DNA from: Marinibacterium anthonyi
GTDB lineage: Bacteria > Pseudomonadota > Alphaproteobacteria > Rhodobacterales > Rhodobacteraceae
NCBI GenBank assembly: GCA_003217735.2
Contig: CP031585.1
Span: 4,389,501-4,453,500, forward strand
Direction: 5' to 3'
DNA length: 64,000 nt
Under the pieces are notes generated by a model. That model saw only the letters and a program-made list of their open reading frames with translations, searched no databases and was not told where the DNA came from. Each line of letters begins with the position of its first letter. The first letter of the stretch is position 1. This document shows, piece after piece, positions 18,596-53,560 of the stretch. The position numbers were made by a program, and so were the translations under genes.

Positions 18596-18624
18596 TTGAC
18601 AAGTTCGGGGCGCGCCGTGATGGT
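18596..18624 (+). promoter_or_regulatory. Candidate promoter for the cobalamin operon
   Basis: A perfect TTGACA (18596-18601) is followed after 17 bases by GATGGT (18619-18624), a weak -10. The predicted transcription start, about 18631, coincides with the expected 5' end of the riboswitch, which supports the call. Confidence 0.5.
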
Positions 18625-18632
18625 CGCGCCCT

Positions 18633-18828
18633 GTTGGTGCCTGTTCTAGGACAGGTGAAAAGGGAATGCGATAGGGGCCACCGACCCCGAAGCGCAGCCG
18701 CCCCCGCGACCGTGACCGGAGAGGTCGGCCAGATGCCACTGAGCGATCGGGAAGGCAGGCCGTCCGACAGGGACTTCCCGCCAGGGGCCCCCTGACATCC
18801 GCAAGCCGGGAGACCTGCCAGCGACGGA
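18633..18828 (+). promoter_or_regulatory. Cobalamin (AdoCbl-type) riboswitch
   Basis: Conserved cobalamin-aptamer blocks occur in the right order: GGTGCC near 18637, AAAAGGGAA near 18658, GCCGCCCCCGCGACCGTGA near 18697, GCCACTG near 18735, GGGAAGGC, and the B12 box GCCGGGAGACCTGCC at 18805-18819. It sits just upstream of DUF1636-cobW-cobN, as expected for feedback control by the end product. The expression platform probably lies between 18830 and 18912. Confidence 0.93.
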
Positions 18829-18888
18829 ATACGGTACCGGACGGGGTGTGTCGGTGGCGGGTTTGCTTGCCAGCGGTCCCGGTGCGCC

Positions 18889-20351: not shown

Positions 20352-23300
20352 ATGCATGTCGTCTTTCGCGAACGCCAGGGGCTGGAAGAGAGCGAGACCC
20401 CCGTCGACCTTGGGCAAAGCCCGGCGGAGTTGGTGGTGCTGTCGTTTTCGGACAGCGACCTGGGGGCGTTCGCGGCGGGGTGGCATCGCGCCAGAGGCGC
20501 GTCTTTAAAGGATGATGCCAGAGGCGCGTCTTTAAAGGATGATGCCAGAGGCGCGTCTTTAAAAGATGACGCCAGAGGCGCGTCTTTGGAAGATGATGCC
20601 GGAAGTGGGGCGACGGGGAGGATCCCCTCCTTGCGGCTGGCCAACCTGGCGGCGCTGAAACATCCGCTGTCGGTCGATACCTACGTGGAGCGGACGCTGG
20701 TGGGCGCGAAAGCGGTGCTGGTCCGGCTGATCGGCGGTGTGCCCTACTGGGCCTACGGGCTGGAGCAACTGCGGGTGCTGGCGGCGCGGACGGGGATGGC
20801 CCTGGCGGTGTTGCCGGCGGACGGGCGGGAGGATCCGGCGCTGGACGGGTATTCGACGGTGCCGGTGTCGACCCTGCGCCGGTTGCAGCATCTGTGCGAC
20901 GAAGGCGGGGCCGTGACGGCGCAGGCGGCCCTGGCGCAATTGTGCCTGGCGGCGGGGATCTATGCGGCCCCGGTGCCCGGGGACAAGCGGTTGCCGTCGA
21001 TGGGCGGGTGGACGCCCCGGACCGGGCCCTGCGATCCCTTGGCGGGCGTTGGAGGGGGGCTGCCTGCCCCCCGGCTCCGCGAGGCGGAGCCCCCCCCGGG
21101 AGGTATTTCGGCCAAGAAGAAGCCATTGGTTCTGGTGGTGTTTTACCGCGCCTACCTGGCGGCGGCGGACCTGGAGCCGGTCGAGGCGTTGTTTGCTGCG
21201 TTTCGGGCGCGGGGCTGCGAGGTCATGGGGCTTTATGCGCCGTCGCTGAAGGGGGCGGCGGCGGGGTGGCTGGCCGGTGTCGTGAGGGAATTGGCGCCGG
21301 CGGCGATCGTGAATGTCACGGCGTTTTCGGGGAAAGGGGCGGAGGGGGCGTCGCCGCTGGATGCCGGGGGCGTGCCGGTGTTCCAGGCGGCGCTGGCGAC
21401 GTCGGACCGGGCGGCCTGGGACGGGGCCGAGCGGGGGTTGGCGCCGGCGGACCTGGCGATGCACGTGGTGCTGCCGGAGGTGGACGGACGGATCTTTGGC
21501 GGGGTGGTGTCGTTTAAGGAGGCCGGTGCGCGGGACCCGGAGCTGGAGTTCGCGCGGGCGGTTCATGTGGCGGACGCCGAGCGGGTGGCGGCGCTGGCGG
21601 ATCGGGTCTGTGGCTGGATCGGGCTGCAGGCGGGACATGGCGGGCGCGTCGGGCTGGTGCTGTCGACCTATCCGGGCAAGGACTGGCAGATCGGCCATGC
21701 CGTGGGGCTGGATGCGCTGGCATCCTGCGGCGCGATGCTGGAGGACCTGGGGCTGGAGGCGCCGGGAGACCTGGCCAAGCGGTTGGGGGTCGAGCGGGTG
21801 CGGGTTTCGCTGGCGGAATATGGCGAGGCGGCGGAGGCGCTGCCCGAGCGGTTGCGCGGGGACCTGGAGGCGGCCTGGGGACAGGCCGAGGCGGATCCGT
21901 CGGTGCGGGACGGGGCGTTCGAATTTGCGGCGCTGCGCATCGGCGAGGCGATCGTGGCGTTGCAGCCCGAGCGGGGCAACGTGGCGGTGCGGGAGGACGA
22001 GTATCACGACCTGGGCCGGGTGCCGCGCCATGGCTACGTGGCGTTCTACCTGTGGCTGCGCCGGCAGGTGAAGGCGCTGGTGCATATCGGGGCGCATGGC
22101 ACGCTGGAATGGCTGCCGGGCAAGGCGGTGGCGCTGTCGGGCGCGTGCTGGCCCGAGGCGCTGATCGGCGATCTGCCGGTGATCTATCCGTTCATCGTCA
22201 ACGATCCGGGCGAGGCCGCGCAGGCCAAGCGGCGCATCGGGGCGGTGACGATCGGCCATGTGCCCCCGCCTTTGCGCGAGAGCGGCACGCCCGAGCGGCT
22301 GGCGCGGCTGGAGGCGCTGCTGGACGAGTTTTCCAATGCCGACGGGCTGGACCCGAAGCGGCGCGCCCGGCTGCAGGAGGATATCCGGGCCGAGGCGCAG
22401 GCGCTGGGGCTGGAGGGCGACCTGGGGCTGGCGGTGGGCATGGATGCGGCCGAGGCGATCACGAAGATCGACCGGTTCGTCTGTGACGTGAAGGAGAGCC
22501 AGTTCGGCGATGGGCTGCATGTCTTCGGGCGGGCGCCGGTTGCGGGCGGGGTGTTCGATGCGGGACCGTCCGCCGTGGCCGAGCGGGCCGGGTTGAAGGC
22601 GGCGCTGGCGGGGCGGTTCGTCGAGGCGGGGCCGTCTGGGTCGCCCTATCGCGGGCGGCGGGACGTGCTGCCGACGGGGCGGAACCTGTATACCACCGAT
22701 CCGCGATCGGTGCCGACACGGGCGGCGTATCGGCAGGGCCGAAGGCTGGCCGGAGAGCTGGTGCGCCGGCATCTGCAGGAGGAAGGCGACTGGCCGCGCG
22801 GCGTGGTCGTGGACCTGTGGGGGTCGGCGACGATGCGCACGGCGGGCGAGGAATTCGCCATGGCGCTGGCGCTGGTGGGGGTGGTGCCGGTGTGGGACGA
22901 GGGATCGGAGCGGGTGTCGGGGCTGGAGGTGGTGCCGCTGAGCGAGATGGAGCACCCCAGGATCGACGTGACCTTGCGGGTGTCGGGGCTGTTCCGGGAT
23001 GTGTTTCCGGGGTTGGCGGGGTTGTTCGCGCAGGCTGTCAGGGTGTTGGCGGGGCGCGACGAGGCGGTTGATTTCAACCCGTATGTCGGCGCGGAGGGGG
23101 CGCGGGTCTATGGGCCGGCGCCGGGGTCCTACGGGTTGGGGATGGACGTGGATGAGTATGGCGCGCAGGCGAAGGCGCGCGCCGGGGAGGCGTGGTTGAG
23201 GGCGTCGTCCTGGGCGATGGACGGGGCCATCGACGGCGCGGGGCCGGTGCAGGATGCCGCCGGGATCCGGGCCCGTGTGGCCGGGGCGGATGCCTTCGTG

Positions 23301-23789: not shown

Positions 23790-25012
23790 CCGTGACGGGC
23801 AAGACAGTGAAGGGCCAGAGCGTTAAGGGTTGGTGTCCCGGCGCGTGGAAGCCGATGGCGTCGGGCGACGGGCTGGTGGTGCGGGTGCGGCCCCGGCTGG
23901 CGCGGCTGAACCGGGCGCAGGTGGAGGGGCTGTGCGGGCTGGCTTTGCGGTACGGGTCGGGATTGGTGGACGTGACGAACCGGGCGAACCTGCAGGTGCG
24001 GGGCGTGGCCGAGGGCGCGCACGAGGCGGTGCTGGAGGGACTGGCCGGTTTGGGGCTGCTGGATGCGGATCCGGAGACTGAAGGGCGGCGGAACGTGGTC
24101 GTGGCGCCGGATTGGGATGAAGGCGACCTGAACTGGCGGCTGGCGAAGGCGCTGGTGGCGCGGCTGGGGGACTTGCCGGAGCTGCCGGTGAAGTTCGGAT
24201 TTGCGGTGGATGCGGGGGATGTTGCGGTTCTGCGGGATGTTCCGGCGGATATCCGGCTGGAGATCGCGCAGGGGCGGCTGGTGGTGCGGGCCGACGGGGC
24301 CGCAGCCGGACGTGTGGTGAACGAGGCGGACGCGGTGGACCGGGTGGTGGAACTGGCGCGGTGGTTTGCCGGGGCGCGTTTGGAGGTCGAGGAGGATGGG
24401 TCGGGACGACCCATCCTACGGGCGCCGACCCGGATGGCGAAGGTTCTGAGAGAGGTGGATTTGCCGGAGGTGTGGCGCGGGGCGGGTGCAGGATGGGTCG
24501 TTTCGGGCCATCATTCGGGCCATCATTCGACCCATCATTCGGGCCATCATTCGGGCCATCTTCCGGGACCAACGCGACTGGGGCCGATGGTAGGTCTGCC
24601 GTTCGGGCAGATCGCGGCGGAGGCCCTGCCCCGGGTCATGGACGCATCCGGCGCGCGGGCCATGCGGGTGACGCCCTGGCGGTGCCTGATCCTGGAAGGC
24701 GGCGCGCCGGTGCAGGATCCGGCCATCCTCACAGACCCCGAGGATCCGCTTTTGACCACAGACGCCTGCCCCGGCGCGCCGTTCTGCGCGGCGGCCAGCG
24801 TGGAAACGCGCGCCGTTGCCCGCAGGCTGGCGCGCAAGGGGCGATCGCTGCACGTGTCGGGCTGCGCCAAGGGATGCGCGCGGGCCACGCCCGCCAATCT
24901 GACGCTGGTGGGACGCGACGGCAGCTTCGACCTTGTCGAAGCCGGCCATGCGTGGGATGAGCCCAGCCAGCATGGGCTTTCGCCCGATCACCTACCGACC
25001 GGGACGACCTGA
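23786..25012 (+). CDS. cobG: Precorrin-3B synthase CobG with a His-rich repeat insert
   Basis: CobG is the oxygen-dependent monooxygenase of aerobic B12 synthesis and is related to sulphite/nitrite reductases. The 408-residue product has four [4Fe-4S] cysteines at about 328, 334, 360 and 364 (CPGAPFC and SGCAKGC). The N-terminus reads WCPGAWKPMASGDGLVVRVRP, as in the family. A five-copy tetrapeptide repeat of the SGHH type (about residues 240-259) interrupts the linker between the two ferredoxin-like halves. The start overlaps the cobN stop by 4 bp. Its presence marks the oxygen-dependent pathway. Confidence 0.94.
   Translation: MTVTGKTVKGQSVKGWCPGAWKPMASGDGLVVRVRPRLARLNRAQVEGLCGLALRYGSGLVDVTNRANLQVRGVAEGAHEAVLEGLAGLGLLDADPETEGRRNVVVAPDWDEGDLNWRLAKALVARLGDLPELPVKFGFAVDAGDVAVLRDVPADIRLEIAQGRLVVRADGAAAGRVVNEADAVDRVVELARWFAGARLEVEEDGSGRPILRAPTRMAKVLREVDLPEVWRGAGAGWVVSGHHSGHHSTHHSGHHSGHLPGPTRLGPMVGLPFGQIAAEALPRVMDASGARAMRVTPWRCLILEGGAPVQDPAILTDPEDPLLTTDACPGAPFCAAASVETRAVARRLARKGRSLHVSGCAKGCARATPANLTLVGRDGSFDLVEAGHAWDEPSQHGLSPDHLPTGTT
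24503..24562 (+). repeat. Five tandem 12-bp repeats inside cobG
   Basis: The unit TCGGGCCATCAT is repeated five times with two to three substitutions in total (one STHH copy, one ending in SGHL). It is in frame and creates a histidine-rich stretch with nine histidines within 20 residues. Confidence 0.93.
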
Positions 25013-34853: not shown

Positions 34854-34964
34854 GTGGTCGCGCCGGAGGCGCGCGTTATGGAGGCGCGCGTCAGTGGTCG
34901 CGCCGGAGGCGCGCGGAATTGGTTTTGCCGGAGGCGCGCGGAATTGGTTTTGCCGGAAGCGCGC
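34854..34964 (-). repeat. GGAGGCGCGC short repeats between FAH and dehydratase genes
   Basis: The 129-bp gap holds five copies of GGAGGCGCGC (the last with one change) starting at 34865, 34880, 34905, 34930 and 34955. A 21-bp stretch (34854-34874) recurs exactly at 34894-34914. The copies run up to the dehydratase stop codon. The core resembles the cobN repeat. Confidence 0.9.
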
Positions 34965-34965
34965 A

Positions 34966-36750
34966 TTAATGGTTGTCGCGCGGCAGGGACTTGTGCGCGA
35001 TATCCTTGAAGTCGTCGGCGCCCCTGAGCGTCATGCCCTCGGAGAAGGGGCGGACCTTTTCGCGGAAGATTTCCTGCCAGGGCGACTGGCTTTCGGGGGT
35101 GAAGGGCCGGTCGGGCAGCGCCGCGCGGCGGTCCGCCAGCACCGCGTCGTCCACCAGCATGTCGGCGGAGAACCTGTTCAGGTCGATGCGCACCATGTCG
35201 CCGGTCTGGACCAGCGCCAGCCCGCCGCCCGCCGCCGCCTCGGGCGAGGCGTTCAGGATCGATGGCGACCCCGACGTGCCCGATTGCCGCCCGTCTCCCA
35301 TGCAGGGCAGTTCGGTGATGCCGCGCTTGATCAGGTAGGCCGGCGCACGCATGTTCACCACCTCGGCGCCGCCCGGATAGCCGATGGGCCCGGCGCCGCG
35401 CATGATCAGGATGCAGTTTTCGTCGATACCAAGGCTTTCGTCGTCGATGCGGGCATGGAAATCCTCGGGGCCATCAAAGACCACCGCGCGGGCGTTGAAG
35501 GCCATCGGATCGTCGGGGTTGGACAGGTAGCGCTTGCGGAAGTCCGGCCCGATGACCGAGGTCTTCATGATCGCGCTGTCGAACAGGTTGCCCTTGAGGT
35601 TCACGAAGCCGGCGCTGGGTTTCAGCGGATCGGCGACCTGCTTGATGACCTCGGTGTTTTCGCTGCGCCGGTTGGAACAATTCTGTTCCATCGTGCGCCC
35701 GTTGGCGGTGATCGCATCGGGGTTGGGCAGCAGATCGGCGGCCATCAGTTCGCCGATGACGGCCGGGACGCCGCCGGCATGCTGGTAATCCTCGCCCAGG
35801 TATTCGCCGGCCGGCTGCAGGTTGACCAGCAGGGGAATGTCGTGGCCCAGGGTCTGCCAGTCGTCGTTGTCCAACGGCACGCCAAGGTGGCGCGCGATGC
35901 CGTTCAGGTGGATCGGCGCGTTGGTCGACCCGCCAATGGCGGAATTCACGACGATGGCGTTTTCGAACGCCTTGCGGGTCATGATGTCGGTGGGCTTCAG
36001 ATCCTCGTGCACCATCTCGACGATGCGCTTGCCGGTGGCATAGGCCATCTGGCCGCGTTCGCGGTAGGGCGCGGGGATGGCCGCCGAACCGGGCAGCTGC
36101 ATGCCCAACGCCTCGGCCAGCGAATTCATCGTGGTGGCCGTGCCCATCGTGTTGCAATAGCCGACCGAGGGGGCGGACGAGGCCACCAGTTCCATGAAGC
36201 CGTCGTCGTCGATTTCGCCGGCGGCGTGCATCTCGCGCGCCTTCCAGACGATGGTGCCCGACCCGGTGCGCTGGCCGCGGAACCAGCCGTTCAGCATCGG
36301 GCCGACCGAAAACGCGATGGCCGGGATGTTGACCGTGGCGGCGGCCATCAGCAGTGCCGGCGTTGTCTTGTCGCAGCCGATGTTCAGCACGACCCCGTCG
36401 ATGGGATAGCCGAACAGGCTTTCGACCAGCGACAGGTAGGCCAGGTTGCGGTCCAGCGACGCGGTGGGCCGCTTGCCGGTTTCCTGGATCGGGTGGACGG
36501 GGAATTCCATCACCGTGCCGCCGGCGGATTCGATTCCGGCGCGAACCCGCTTGGACAGTTCCACGTGGTGGCGGTTGCAGGGGCTCAGGTCGGATCCGGT
36601 CTGGGCGATGCCGATGATCGGCTTGTCCGATTGCAGTTCCTCGCGCGTCAGCCCGTAATTCAGGTAGCGTTCCAGGTAAAGCGCGGTCATCTCGCGGTTG
36701 TCCGGGTTGTCGAACCAGAGACGCGAGCGGAGTTTTGTCTTGTTTGCCAT
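34966..36750 (-). CDS. IlvD/Edd-family sugar-acid dehydratase
   Basis: The 594-residue product is an iron-sulphur dehydratase of the type that converts aldonic acids such as L-arabinonate, D-xylonate or a 6-deoxy aldonate to 2-keto-3-deoxy acids. Cluster-ligand cysteines are seen in [14 protein letters not shown] and in [13 protein letters not shown], and the C-terminus has [18 protein letters not shown]. It differs from biosynthetic IlvD in its N-terminus ([20 protein letters not shown]), which is typical of the sugar-acid branch. Substrate identity is not readable from the sequence; the neighbours suggest a route via a diketo-deoxy acid. Confidence 0.88.
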
Positions 36751-52391: not shown

Positions 52392-52541
52392 GGCCCCGTT
52401 CCCCCTTCGTCTGCACGCCGCGCACCTTTCCCCAGCATGGCCGTCCGCGGCAAGAGCGGATTTCGCAATCCGCTGCGTCACGGCTTGCCAGCGCCCGGTC
52501 CCGGCCCCAAGGTTTCCCGGCGCACAGCGGGAGCACGGGTG

Positions 52542-53333
52542 ATGGCAATCGACGAGGCGGCGGATTTCCTGGCCGAAAGCGAGGCGCTCTTTGCCCTGCT
52601 CGACGGGCTTGGCGCCGCCGACTACGACCGGGTGACGGCGTTCAAGGGCTGGACGATCGGCGACGTGCTGGTCCACCTGCACTTCTGGAACCGCGCGGCC
52701 GATCTGTCGGCGCTGGACGGCGAGGCCTTCGGGACCCTGATGGAGGAGGTTCTGCCCGAGATCGAGCGCGGCGCCTTCCGGGCGGCCGAGAACGCCAGGG
52801 TCGAGGAGCGCGGTCCGGAGCTGCTGGCGGCCTGGATCACCTATGCCCGCGAGATGGCGGCCCGCTGGTCCGAAATGGATCCCAGGGCGCGGCTGCCCTG
52901 GGCCGGACCGTCGATGTCGGCACGGTCGTCGATCACCGCGCGGCAGATGGAGACCTGGGCGCATGGATTCGAGATCTTCGACCTGCTGGGGCAGGACCGG
53001 GACGAAACCGACCGGATCCGCAATATCGTGGTGCTGGGGGTGAACACCTTCGGATGGTCGCACAAGGTGCACGGGCTGGACATGCCGGAGGCCATGCCGC
53101 TGGTGCGGGTCACGTCGCCGTCCGGGGCGGTCTGGGACTGGGGCGATGACGCGGCGGGGCGGATCGAGGGGCCGGCGGTGGATTTCGCCGCCGTCGTCAC
53201 CCAGACGCGGGCGCTGGCGGATACGGCGTTGATTGTCGAGGGGCCGGTGGCCAAGGCCTGGATGGACAATGCGCAATGCTTTGCGGGGGCGCCGCAGACG
53301 CCGCCGACCGCCGGGTCGCGGCGGCGGGCGTAG
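52542..53333 (+). CDS. TIGR03084-like DinB/MDMPI-fold protein
   Basis: The 263-residue product has the four-helix DinB/maleylpyruvate-isomerase-like fold: an N-terminal helix FLAESEALFALLDGL, metal-ligand histidine in VLVHLHFWNRAAD and a second in METWAHGFEIFDLLG. It matches the family often called TIGR03084, whose function is not established. The ATG at 52542 is chosen because upstream sequence in this frame is unrelated. The divergent acyl-CoA dehydrogenase-type SDR may be functionally linked. Confidence 0.78.
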   Translation: MAIDEAADFLAESEALFALLDGLGAADYDRVTAFKGWTIGDVLVHLHFWNRAADLSALDGEAFGTLMEEVLPEIERGAFRAAENARVEERGPELLAAWITYAREMAARWSEMDPRARLPWAGPSMSARSSITARQMETWAHGFEIFDLLGQDRDETDRIRNIVVLGVNTFGWSHKVHGLDMPEAMPLVRVTSPSGAVWDWGDDAAGRIEGPAVDFAAVVTQTRALADTALIVEGPVAKAWMDNAQCFAGAPQTPPTAGSRRRA

Positions 53334-53560
53334 AGTCGGGGGCGCTGCCCCCGTCCTCCGGTGGAGGACTCCCCCGAGGGTATTTTTGCCAAGAAGAAGC
53401 AGCGATTGGTTCTGGGAACGGCCGGCGCGCGGTTGCCGGGGTGGGAGCGCGCCGGACGTTGGTGCGGGTCGGGTGATGTACCCCGCCCGGGTCGGGTTGG
53501 ATCCGGGCGGGGTTGTCGGGCGCAGCGCAGGGAGATCGGAGGGTCTGCGCCCTCGGGAGG
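53334..53560. other. Intergenic region with a dispersed repeat and no gene
   Basis: About 230 bp between convergent genes. It holds the hairpin element described at 53336-53418; the rest (53420-53560) is GC-rich without a credible ORF. No promoter is expected here because both flanking genes end in it. Confidence 0.7.
53336..53418 (+). repeat. Dispersed GC-hairpin element (intergenic copy)
   Basis: The element reads: GGGGGCGCTGCCCCC stem, a TCCTCC-GGT-GGAGGA hairpin, CCCCCGAGGGTATTTTTGCC followed by AAGAAGAAGC and ATTGGTTCTGG. The same order of parts occurs inside cobN at 21050-21130, and the GTATTTT end recurs inverted at 16534-16566. It lies directly after the stop of the TIGR03084-like gene. 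Confidence 0.8.

Follow-up and report, generated by a model that had tools for sequence, protein, structure and literature searches.

The cobN gene of the window, the whole 64,000-nt stretch of DNA analysed here, carries within its reading frame a segment built like a hairpin-forming stretch that lies between genes elsewhere in the window. Can a dispersed hairpin element become coding sequence of a conserved enzyme, and does it keep its nucleic-acid design once it is there?

The segment in cobN and its intergenic counterpart

The window protein matches the CobN equivalog profile NF008973 with 1525.8 bits (cut-off 1235). As had been claimed, the frame stays open through the segment, and family-like sequence follows, native-like from P258. 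The two copies found in the window (Table 1) share one layout: a G-run/C-run hairpin comes first, followed by another GC hairpin and a C-run; GTATTT, three free bases and CCAAGAAGAAG complete it. The cobN copy is 75 nt long, in frame and in sense orientation; its tail reads GTATTTCGGCCAAGAAGAAG, and that of the copy between genes reads GTATTTTTGCCAAGAAGAAG (53380-53399). With up to three mismatches allowed, this tail occurs at only these two places within the window (shuffle expectation 0.00). Two hairpins fold 5' of the tail in both copies, with modest z-scores of -1.55 and -1.72. The element measures about 65-80 nt and is made of two hairpins and a non-palindromic tail, which by inspection forms no inverted repeat with the element's 5' end. 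In the intergenic copy GTATTT begins 46 nt past the upstream stop codon, and the next gene lies on the opposite strand in a convergent arrangement.

These observations confirm that a copy of the element lies within cobN, even if two details of the first-pass annotation had to be revised. It had run the shared parts on to 53418 and listed ATTGGTTCTGG among them; the hairpins, GTATTT and the CCAAGAAGAAG tail stood, but ATTGGTTCTGG was rejected as part of the element. It follows just 2 of the 100 copies examined (the two of the window) and is thus a chance or local feature. The insert had also been drawn over residues 233-262. Residues V233-K257 are encoded by the element, whereas residues 258-262 are native-like, because a homologue (L038) also reads RPLVLVVFYR.

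Table 1. Positions of the two element copies of the window and of the features around them
Feature	Position	Strand	Basis
cobN, cobaltochelatase subunit, 1145 aa	20352..23789	+	gene call, family match
Cobalamin riboswitch 5' of the cobW-cobN gene run	18618..18836	+	Rfam
Element-derived in-frame insert in cobN, coding for CobN V233-K257	21048..21122	+	clean insert versus homologues
First hairpin (G/C-run stem), cobN copy	21054..21072	+	RNA fold
Second hairpin, cobN copy	21073..21091	+	RNA fold; pairing conserved across species while both arms vary
Conserved tail GTATTT-NNN-CCAAGAAGAAG in cobN	21103..21122	+	pattern search
Intergenic element copy	53336..53399	+	pattern search, RNA fold
Gene 5' of the intergenic copy, TIGR03084 family	52539..53333	+	gene calling, family match

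The homologues were compared in a set of 93 CobN proteins: the window protein, 12 relatives and 80 whose genomes are named or binned. The stretch between the residues matching P222 and F264 of the window protein is 25 residues or shorter in 74 of the 93 and 42 long in the window; the usual anchor spacing is 22-24 residues, and only 10 of the 93 reach 41 or more. The alignment shows a clean insert at V233-K257, with no comparable segment in the 74 short proteins, although the exact insertion codon cannot be fixed because the length of the linker varies. A recognisable structured element is present in 8 of the 10 long CobN, hence in 8/93 (the window, G002, G004, Mameliella, Allosediminivita, Roseivivax marinus, Roseivivax sediminis and one uncultured bacterium); Sediminimonas and Roseivivax GX 12232 have a long linker without one. 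All eight copies occupy the identical linker in the identical reading frame, and a private insertion into the window cobN was rejected on these grounds. Such a capture had been called unusual for a cobaltochelatase. The capture itself holds, but sequence comparison indicates that it is common to several genera, and it recurs in xdhB.

A CobN tree was built from 56 of the 93 rows with the insert region removed (the 37 omitted are mostly close relatives). The eight carriers are scattered on it, requiring 6 changes, at least 5 of them forced by well-supported branches; 34 of 500 label shuffles needed as few. This pattern could reflect an old insertion that some lineages later lost, transfer of cobN from lineage to lineage, or gain on several occasions. 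The shared place, frame and subtype are evidence against many independent insertions. An AlphaFold model, built with 12 sequences and with an overall pLDDT of only 65, gives values below 50 at residues 233-254 and neither helix nor strand there, and the insert is predicted to be a flexible loop.

The cob run also contains tandem repeats. At 20490-20600 in cobN, a 27-nt repeat of 4.1 copies encodes (ASLKDDARG)n within residues 49-106, for which pLDDT is very low; the other 92 CobN have merely 6-11 residues at this site, and the exact core pattern has 4 matches in the genome, all at this locus. A second in-frame repeat of the run lies in the downstream cobG (24502-24567; 12-nt unit, encoding HHSGHHSTHHSGHHSGH). 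Elsewhere in the window, a 25-nt tandem repeat of 3.4 copies is found at 34880-34974.

Copies in the genome and in the family

A search of the whole genome did reveal further copies: GTATTTN{0,6}CCAAGAAGAAG occurs 120 times (65 forward and 55 reverse), against 0 for the reversed control. With most CobN homologues lacking the segment and these 120 copies, the first-pass reading of a dispersed hairpin element turned into cobN coding sequence is supported. Many dispersed copies (120 versus 0) and in-frame inserts in conserved proteins that have homologues without them (cobN, xdhB, nnr) are both features of a protein-coding palindromic repeat. The exact tail was present in 7 of 61 genomes, this one included. 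When the pattern was loosened to cover the wider family, 139 of 198 family genomes matched, many of them with few, chance-level matches; at least 10 matches were found in 55 of the 198 (hand count of the table), with forward counts inflated by overlapping matches in C-runs and the reversed control never above 4. Twenty small regions from other genera have the same architecture with different tails, frequently CAAGATGAAG, and the element is found on plasmids too. By its sequence distribution, it is a dispersed, sense-oriented hairpin element of Rhodobacteraceae. A second recurrent stretch, around ATATTGGCCGTTTTGTACAAAA, follows seven of the copies (L098, L022, L024, L019, L083, L092 and L108) and is a possible further dispersed motif.

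For 100 of the 120 copies the position relative to genes was examined, with gene calls from a custom codon-usage script. Ninety-five were intergenic, four lay inside called genes and one overlapped a gene start. All four in-gene copies are in sense. One, L069, is uncertain: its gene call rests on a start placed 56 nt upstream and on weak matches to methyltransferases, and it was not counted as a proven case. A same-strand gene stands upstream of 72 of the 95 intergenic copies, the sense position at 3' ends that is expected of intrinsic terminators; 41 of these are in convergent and 31 in co-directional gaps, and the remaining 17 and 6 are in two other arrangements. For comparison, the 24 gaps of at least 60 nt in the window comprise 13 co-directional, 5 convergent and 6 divergent ones. 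In copies with a same-strand gene upstream, GTATTT starts a median of 45.5 nt past its stop codon, and close pairs of copies face each other in 13 of 14 cases. The congener G002 (30 of 86 copies examined) has 11 convergent, 10 and 7 co-directional, 1 divergent and 1 overlapping a gene start. On eight annotated plasmid records, five copies lie 3' of a same-strand gene at 0 to ~280 nt, one is in a gene in sense and two are neither, one of these overlapping the start of a small hypothetical gene. The intergenic copies are thus placed like transcript-end elements.

Individual copies deserve mention. In Roseinatronobacter sp. S2 a copy (L342, 1001-1063) sits between bchX and bchY of the bacteriochlorophyll operon. 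In G002 the tail of one copy (L243, 1501-1521) lies just 5' of a called gene start or runs into it; its purine-rich end may act as a ribosome-binding site, and L086 of the genome under study is similar.

Folding, terminator and repeat-family tests were then compared. The mean fold z-score of the 95 intergenic copies is -1.39, with 28% below -2; the control stretches gave -0.16 and 5%. A scan for T-run terminators (at least 5 T within 8 bases after the stem) found neither of the two window copies, so the element was not filed as an intrinsic terminator. At the gathering score, an Rfam search of the window returned the cobalamin riboswitch only and no match to the element; CrfA scored 15.3 bits over the cobN copy (E 0.92), below its cut-off of 38. 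A known RNA family was rejected on this basis. A REP driven by RAYT was rejected as well, as no Y1_Tnp transposase gene was found in this genome by a search whose control was positive in 5 of 14 genomes.

Copies in xdhB and nnr, and the design kept inside genes

One of the in-gene copies of the genome (L107) is in xdhB, encoding the molybdopterin subunit of xanthine dehydrogenase, between the Pfam domains MoCoBD_1 and MoCoBD_2. In other genera the same linker contains elements of several hairpin types, in sense and mostly with one tail frame (L315 is the exception). From 83 xdhB sequences given, 15 failed the anchor pattern and 5 were duplicates; the 63 parsed comprise 23 with first hairpin and tail, 13 with the tail alone, 25 with neither and 2 with a hairpin-like run alone, these labels coming from rough patterns and the tail class being doubtful or decayed in at least L212, L217 and L291. 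Neither these counts nor the tail in 36 of 63 are frequencies, because long linkers were over-represented: 29 of the sequences given were fetched as split or partial matches and 11 were hand-picked. The PDB chain 2w55_B, named xanthine dehydrogenase, holds GGLSAPPSPPEPIATKKTQT at the xdhB site, with 1jro_B equal to it in score and range; GGLSAPPSPPEPIATKK is contained in a PDB chain of xanthine dehydrogenase at this site. We take 2w55 and 1jro to be crystal structures of the Rhodobacter capsulatus enzyme. Many genera have a second recurrent peptide in the xdhB linker 3' of the element, around DLTSRGA/DLASRGA (L300, L302, L306, L314, L316, L325 and others).

The copy in nnr of this genome is read in a different frame and is absent from 10/10 homologues that align there (13 homologue loci were compared; 3 gave the wrong gene piece and were uninformative). 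A further in-gene case is an annotated FAD-binding protein of Cereibacter azotoformans, and a composite-peptide search of the plasmids gave no match. In six genomes (G001, G002, G004, G018, G021 and G022), nnr gives two match pieces at the YjeF_N/Carb_kinase boundary, the first piece containing stops; no element was seen at the junction in the three split loci inspected. A comparison of in-gene tails with the tail type of their own genome was mixed: the xdhB tails of G000, G001 and G022 fit, that of G136 does not. G065 has a AAGAAGAAG xdhB tail, whereas only its AAGATGAAG copies were counted. Because of this count and the G136 misfit, no claim is made on in-gene versus genome tail type.

Each of the eight CobN copies has 5-8 pairs in its second stem despite differing peptides (RLREAE, RLGGAE, RSDKPS, RLPEAS, HGPAAR, RAGGA, RSPLAS and RACGA), and between the window and its sister species G002 a stem pair is altered on both sides. 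When arms were permuted between species, the native total of 52 was reached in 0 of 3000 trials (kinship ignored), a test that leans towards the native set because the arms were picked as best stems. Random synonymous recoding keeps the same peptides and is free of this lean. By species, the native stem was reached in 13 to 623 of 2000 trials, with a combined p of ~4e-5, or 2e-4 without G002 (kinship ignored); the two Roseivivax stems are weak evidence singly. For xdhB, the second hairpin was measurable in 18 copies. Their native stems add up to 99, and the best of 1000 arm permutations came to 75; this test shares the lean towards native arms picked as best stems and ignores kinship. Recoding gave a combined p of ~5e-5, and of 0.001 without L322, left out because its long stem is an extra hairpin (kinship ignored); singly, p was <0.05 in 5 of 18 copies. 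These comparisons indicate that the second hairpin is retained in genes while sequence and peptide change.

The tail is likewise kept at the level of codons. Its Ile is ATT in 26/26 xdhB inserts, chosen by peptide pattern, versus 48/232 flank Ile codons (p 2e-16), and in 7/8 cobN tails versus 17/208 Ile codons elsewhere in those genes (p 7e-7). When every Ile codon of the 63 xdhB linkers is taken, without picking, 32 of the 41 are ATT (p 2e-12 versus those flanks). Pro CCC is commoner in inserts than in flanks (p 9e-6; kinship is ignored in all four values), and Gly GGG is not enriched (p 0.24). The Ile is lost entirely from the tails of L282, L305 and L314. The DNA inside the genes thus follows the element and not codon preference, since the second hairpin is kept and the tail Ile stays ATT.

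Candidate explanations and known systems

We think it probable that the cobN segment is a translated, in-frame copy of a dispersed transcript-end hairpin element, forming a flexible loop of CobN. The insert, its in-frame state, its sharing among genera, the retention of the stem and the tail letters that go against codon preference are established by the sequence comparisons. The insert would be translated. Between genes, the element would act at transcript 3' ends, as a terminator-type or RNA-end-defining hairpin. The cobN and xdhB copies would be harmless as long as ribosomes trail RNA polymerase closely, because a translating ribosome blocks hairpin formation; that ribosomes prevent terminator hairpins is a principle given in the relevant part of PMC5021804. 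Retention at the nucleotide level would come from selection on the RNA or from ongoing correction by other copies in the pool. Some points sit less well with this explanation. The conserved CCAAGAAGAAG 3' of the hairpin is not accounted for by a plain terminator, the stem retention could stem from template switching instead of selection, and the spread on the CobN tree would need many losses, gene exchange or repeated gain.

The cob genes are closely spaced behind the cobalamin riboswitch, and the cobN copy, silent under translation, might halt transcription upon translation failure. In a bolder form, which we regard as speculative and improbable, in-frame terminator-type hairpins in cobN and xdhB would be kept across Rhodobacteraceae as translation-coupled checkpoints. 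When translation lags or is shut off, for instance by the cobalamin riboswitch, the naked mRNA would fold and transcription of the operon would stop within the gene; in the translated state, the product would be an inert protein loop.

The main rival, somewhat short of an even chance, is that the element is a neutral passenger tolerated in CobN and XdhB loops with no function in the gene, its stems persisting through template switching in imperfect palindromes or through gene conversion from other copies. Both sites are linkers of variable length, the CobN loop is predicted as coil with very low confidence, many relatives are without such a stretch, and the nnr copy, in another frame, has no counterpart in the 10 aligned homologues. 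The tail, however, is not palindromic and its ATT is still kept (26/26 and 7/8), and the window and G002 differ by a two-sided change of a stem pair rather than by wholesale replacement. Gene conversion from the copy pool could still account for the tail.

That the element is an RNA processing or stability element and not a terminator, its hairpin protecting or defining mRNA 3' ends or operon segments, seems rather unlikely to us. The weak U-tract of the window copies, the copy between bchX and bchY and the 31 of 95 intergenic copies between two genes on the element's own strand are in line with this idea, whereas 41 of the 95 are in convergent gaps, in which there is less need to stabilise individual segments. 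We are a little more doubtful still of a selfish mobile element of the REP/MITE type without any host role, for which the gene-end bias would merely be the least harmful insertion. It would suit the wide spread (139/198 genomes loosely, 55 with at least 10 matches, and plasmids too) and the differing hairpin types at a single xdhB site, and the same reading is offered, in the passage of PMC3049150 concerned, for SPRITE repeats enriched between convergent genes. Against it, the genome has no detected Y1_Tnp (RAYT) gene, a family found in 5 of 14 genomes as control, and no target-site duplication was resolved, the empty sites compared being distant; the 31 versus 17 orientation bias in co-directional gaps and the head-to-head pairs (13/14) are in keeping with an RNA role specific to one strand. 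That a GC-rich linker resembles the element by chance, as the low-complexity, glycine/proline-rich peptide might suggest, is refuted by the 0 tail matches expected by shuffling and by the order hairpin, hairpin, C-run, GTATTT-like tail recurring in eight CobN and in xdhB, and its probability is next to nil.

A non-coding repeat of the transcript-end type is here kept within enzyme genes in several genera with its nucleic-acid design intact, and whether genes can harbour in-frame conditional terminators becomes testable. The captured segment offers a clear case of non-coding DNA turned protein, and a PDB chain appears to include a segment of this kind. In a large and heavily sequenced bacterial family the element is common, and its window copies have no Rfam match at the cut-off.

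Among known systems, the Rickettsia palindromic elements (RPE), to which the first-pass annotation had likened the segment, come first. The passages of PMC2229807 and PMC10969869 that describe them present an alphaproteobacterial dispersed repeat of 105-150 nt with terminal inverted repeats, found between genes and in frame in conserved genes, nearly half of one set being in genes. The element resembles them as a dispersed palindromic repeat lying both between genes and in frame within conserved protein genes. In contrast to what these passages report, it is ~65-80 nt long, has two hairpins and a non-palindromic tail, sits in sense at gene 3' ends and is inside called genes in just 4 of 100 examined copies; by these descriptions of architecture and host it is set apart from RPE proper. 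The analogy covers the coding capture but not the action of the element, because its intergenic copies sit at transcript ends. As described in part of PMC3049150, SPRITE is a terminator-like repeat near gene 3' ends that is enriched between convergent genes, and in both respects the element is alike. Unlike SPRITE, which that account gives as AT-rich with a long U-rich tract and without mention of coding capture, it is GC-rich, has GTATTT only and ends in a conserved purine-rich tail. With intrinsic (Rho-independent) terminators it shares a GC-rich sense hairpin soon after the stop codon, often head-to-head in convergent gaps, but the T-run is absent in the two window copies and conservation extends past the hairpin. 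REP/RAYT systems likewise have many short intergenic palindromes, but no Y1_Tnp protein was found in this genome. In the portion of PMC2267715 on Cod-2, Cozzuto and colleagues describe a very small repeat with in-gene copies in different frames. No published description of the element was noticed among the matches listed in the literature search. What seems different is the combination: a transcript-end type repeat captured in frame in conserved enzymes of several genera, apparently with both its structure and its tail kept.
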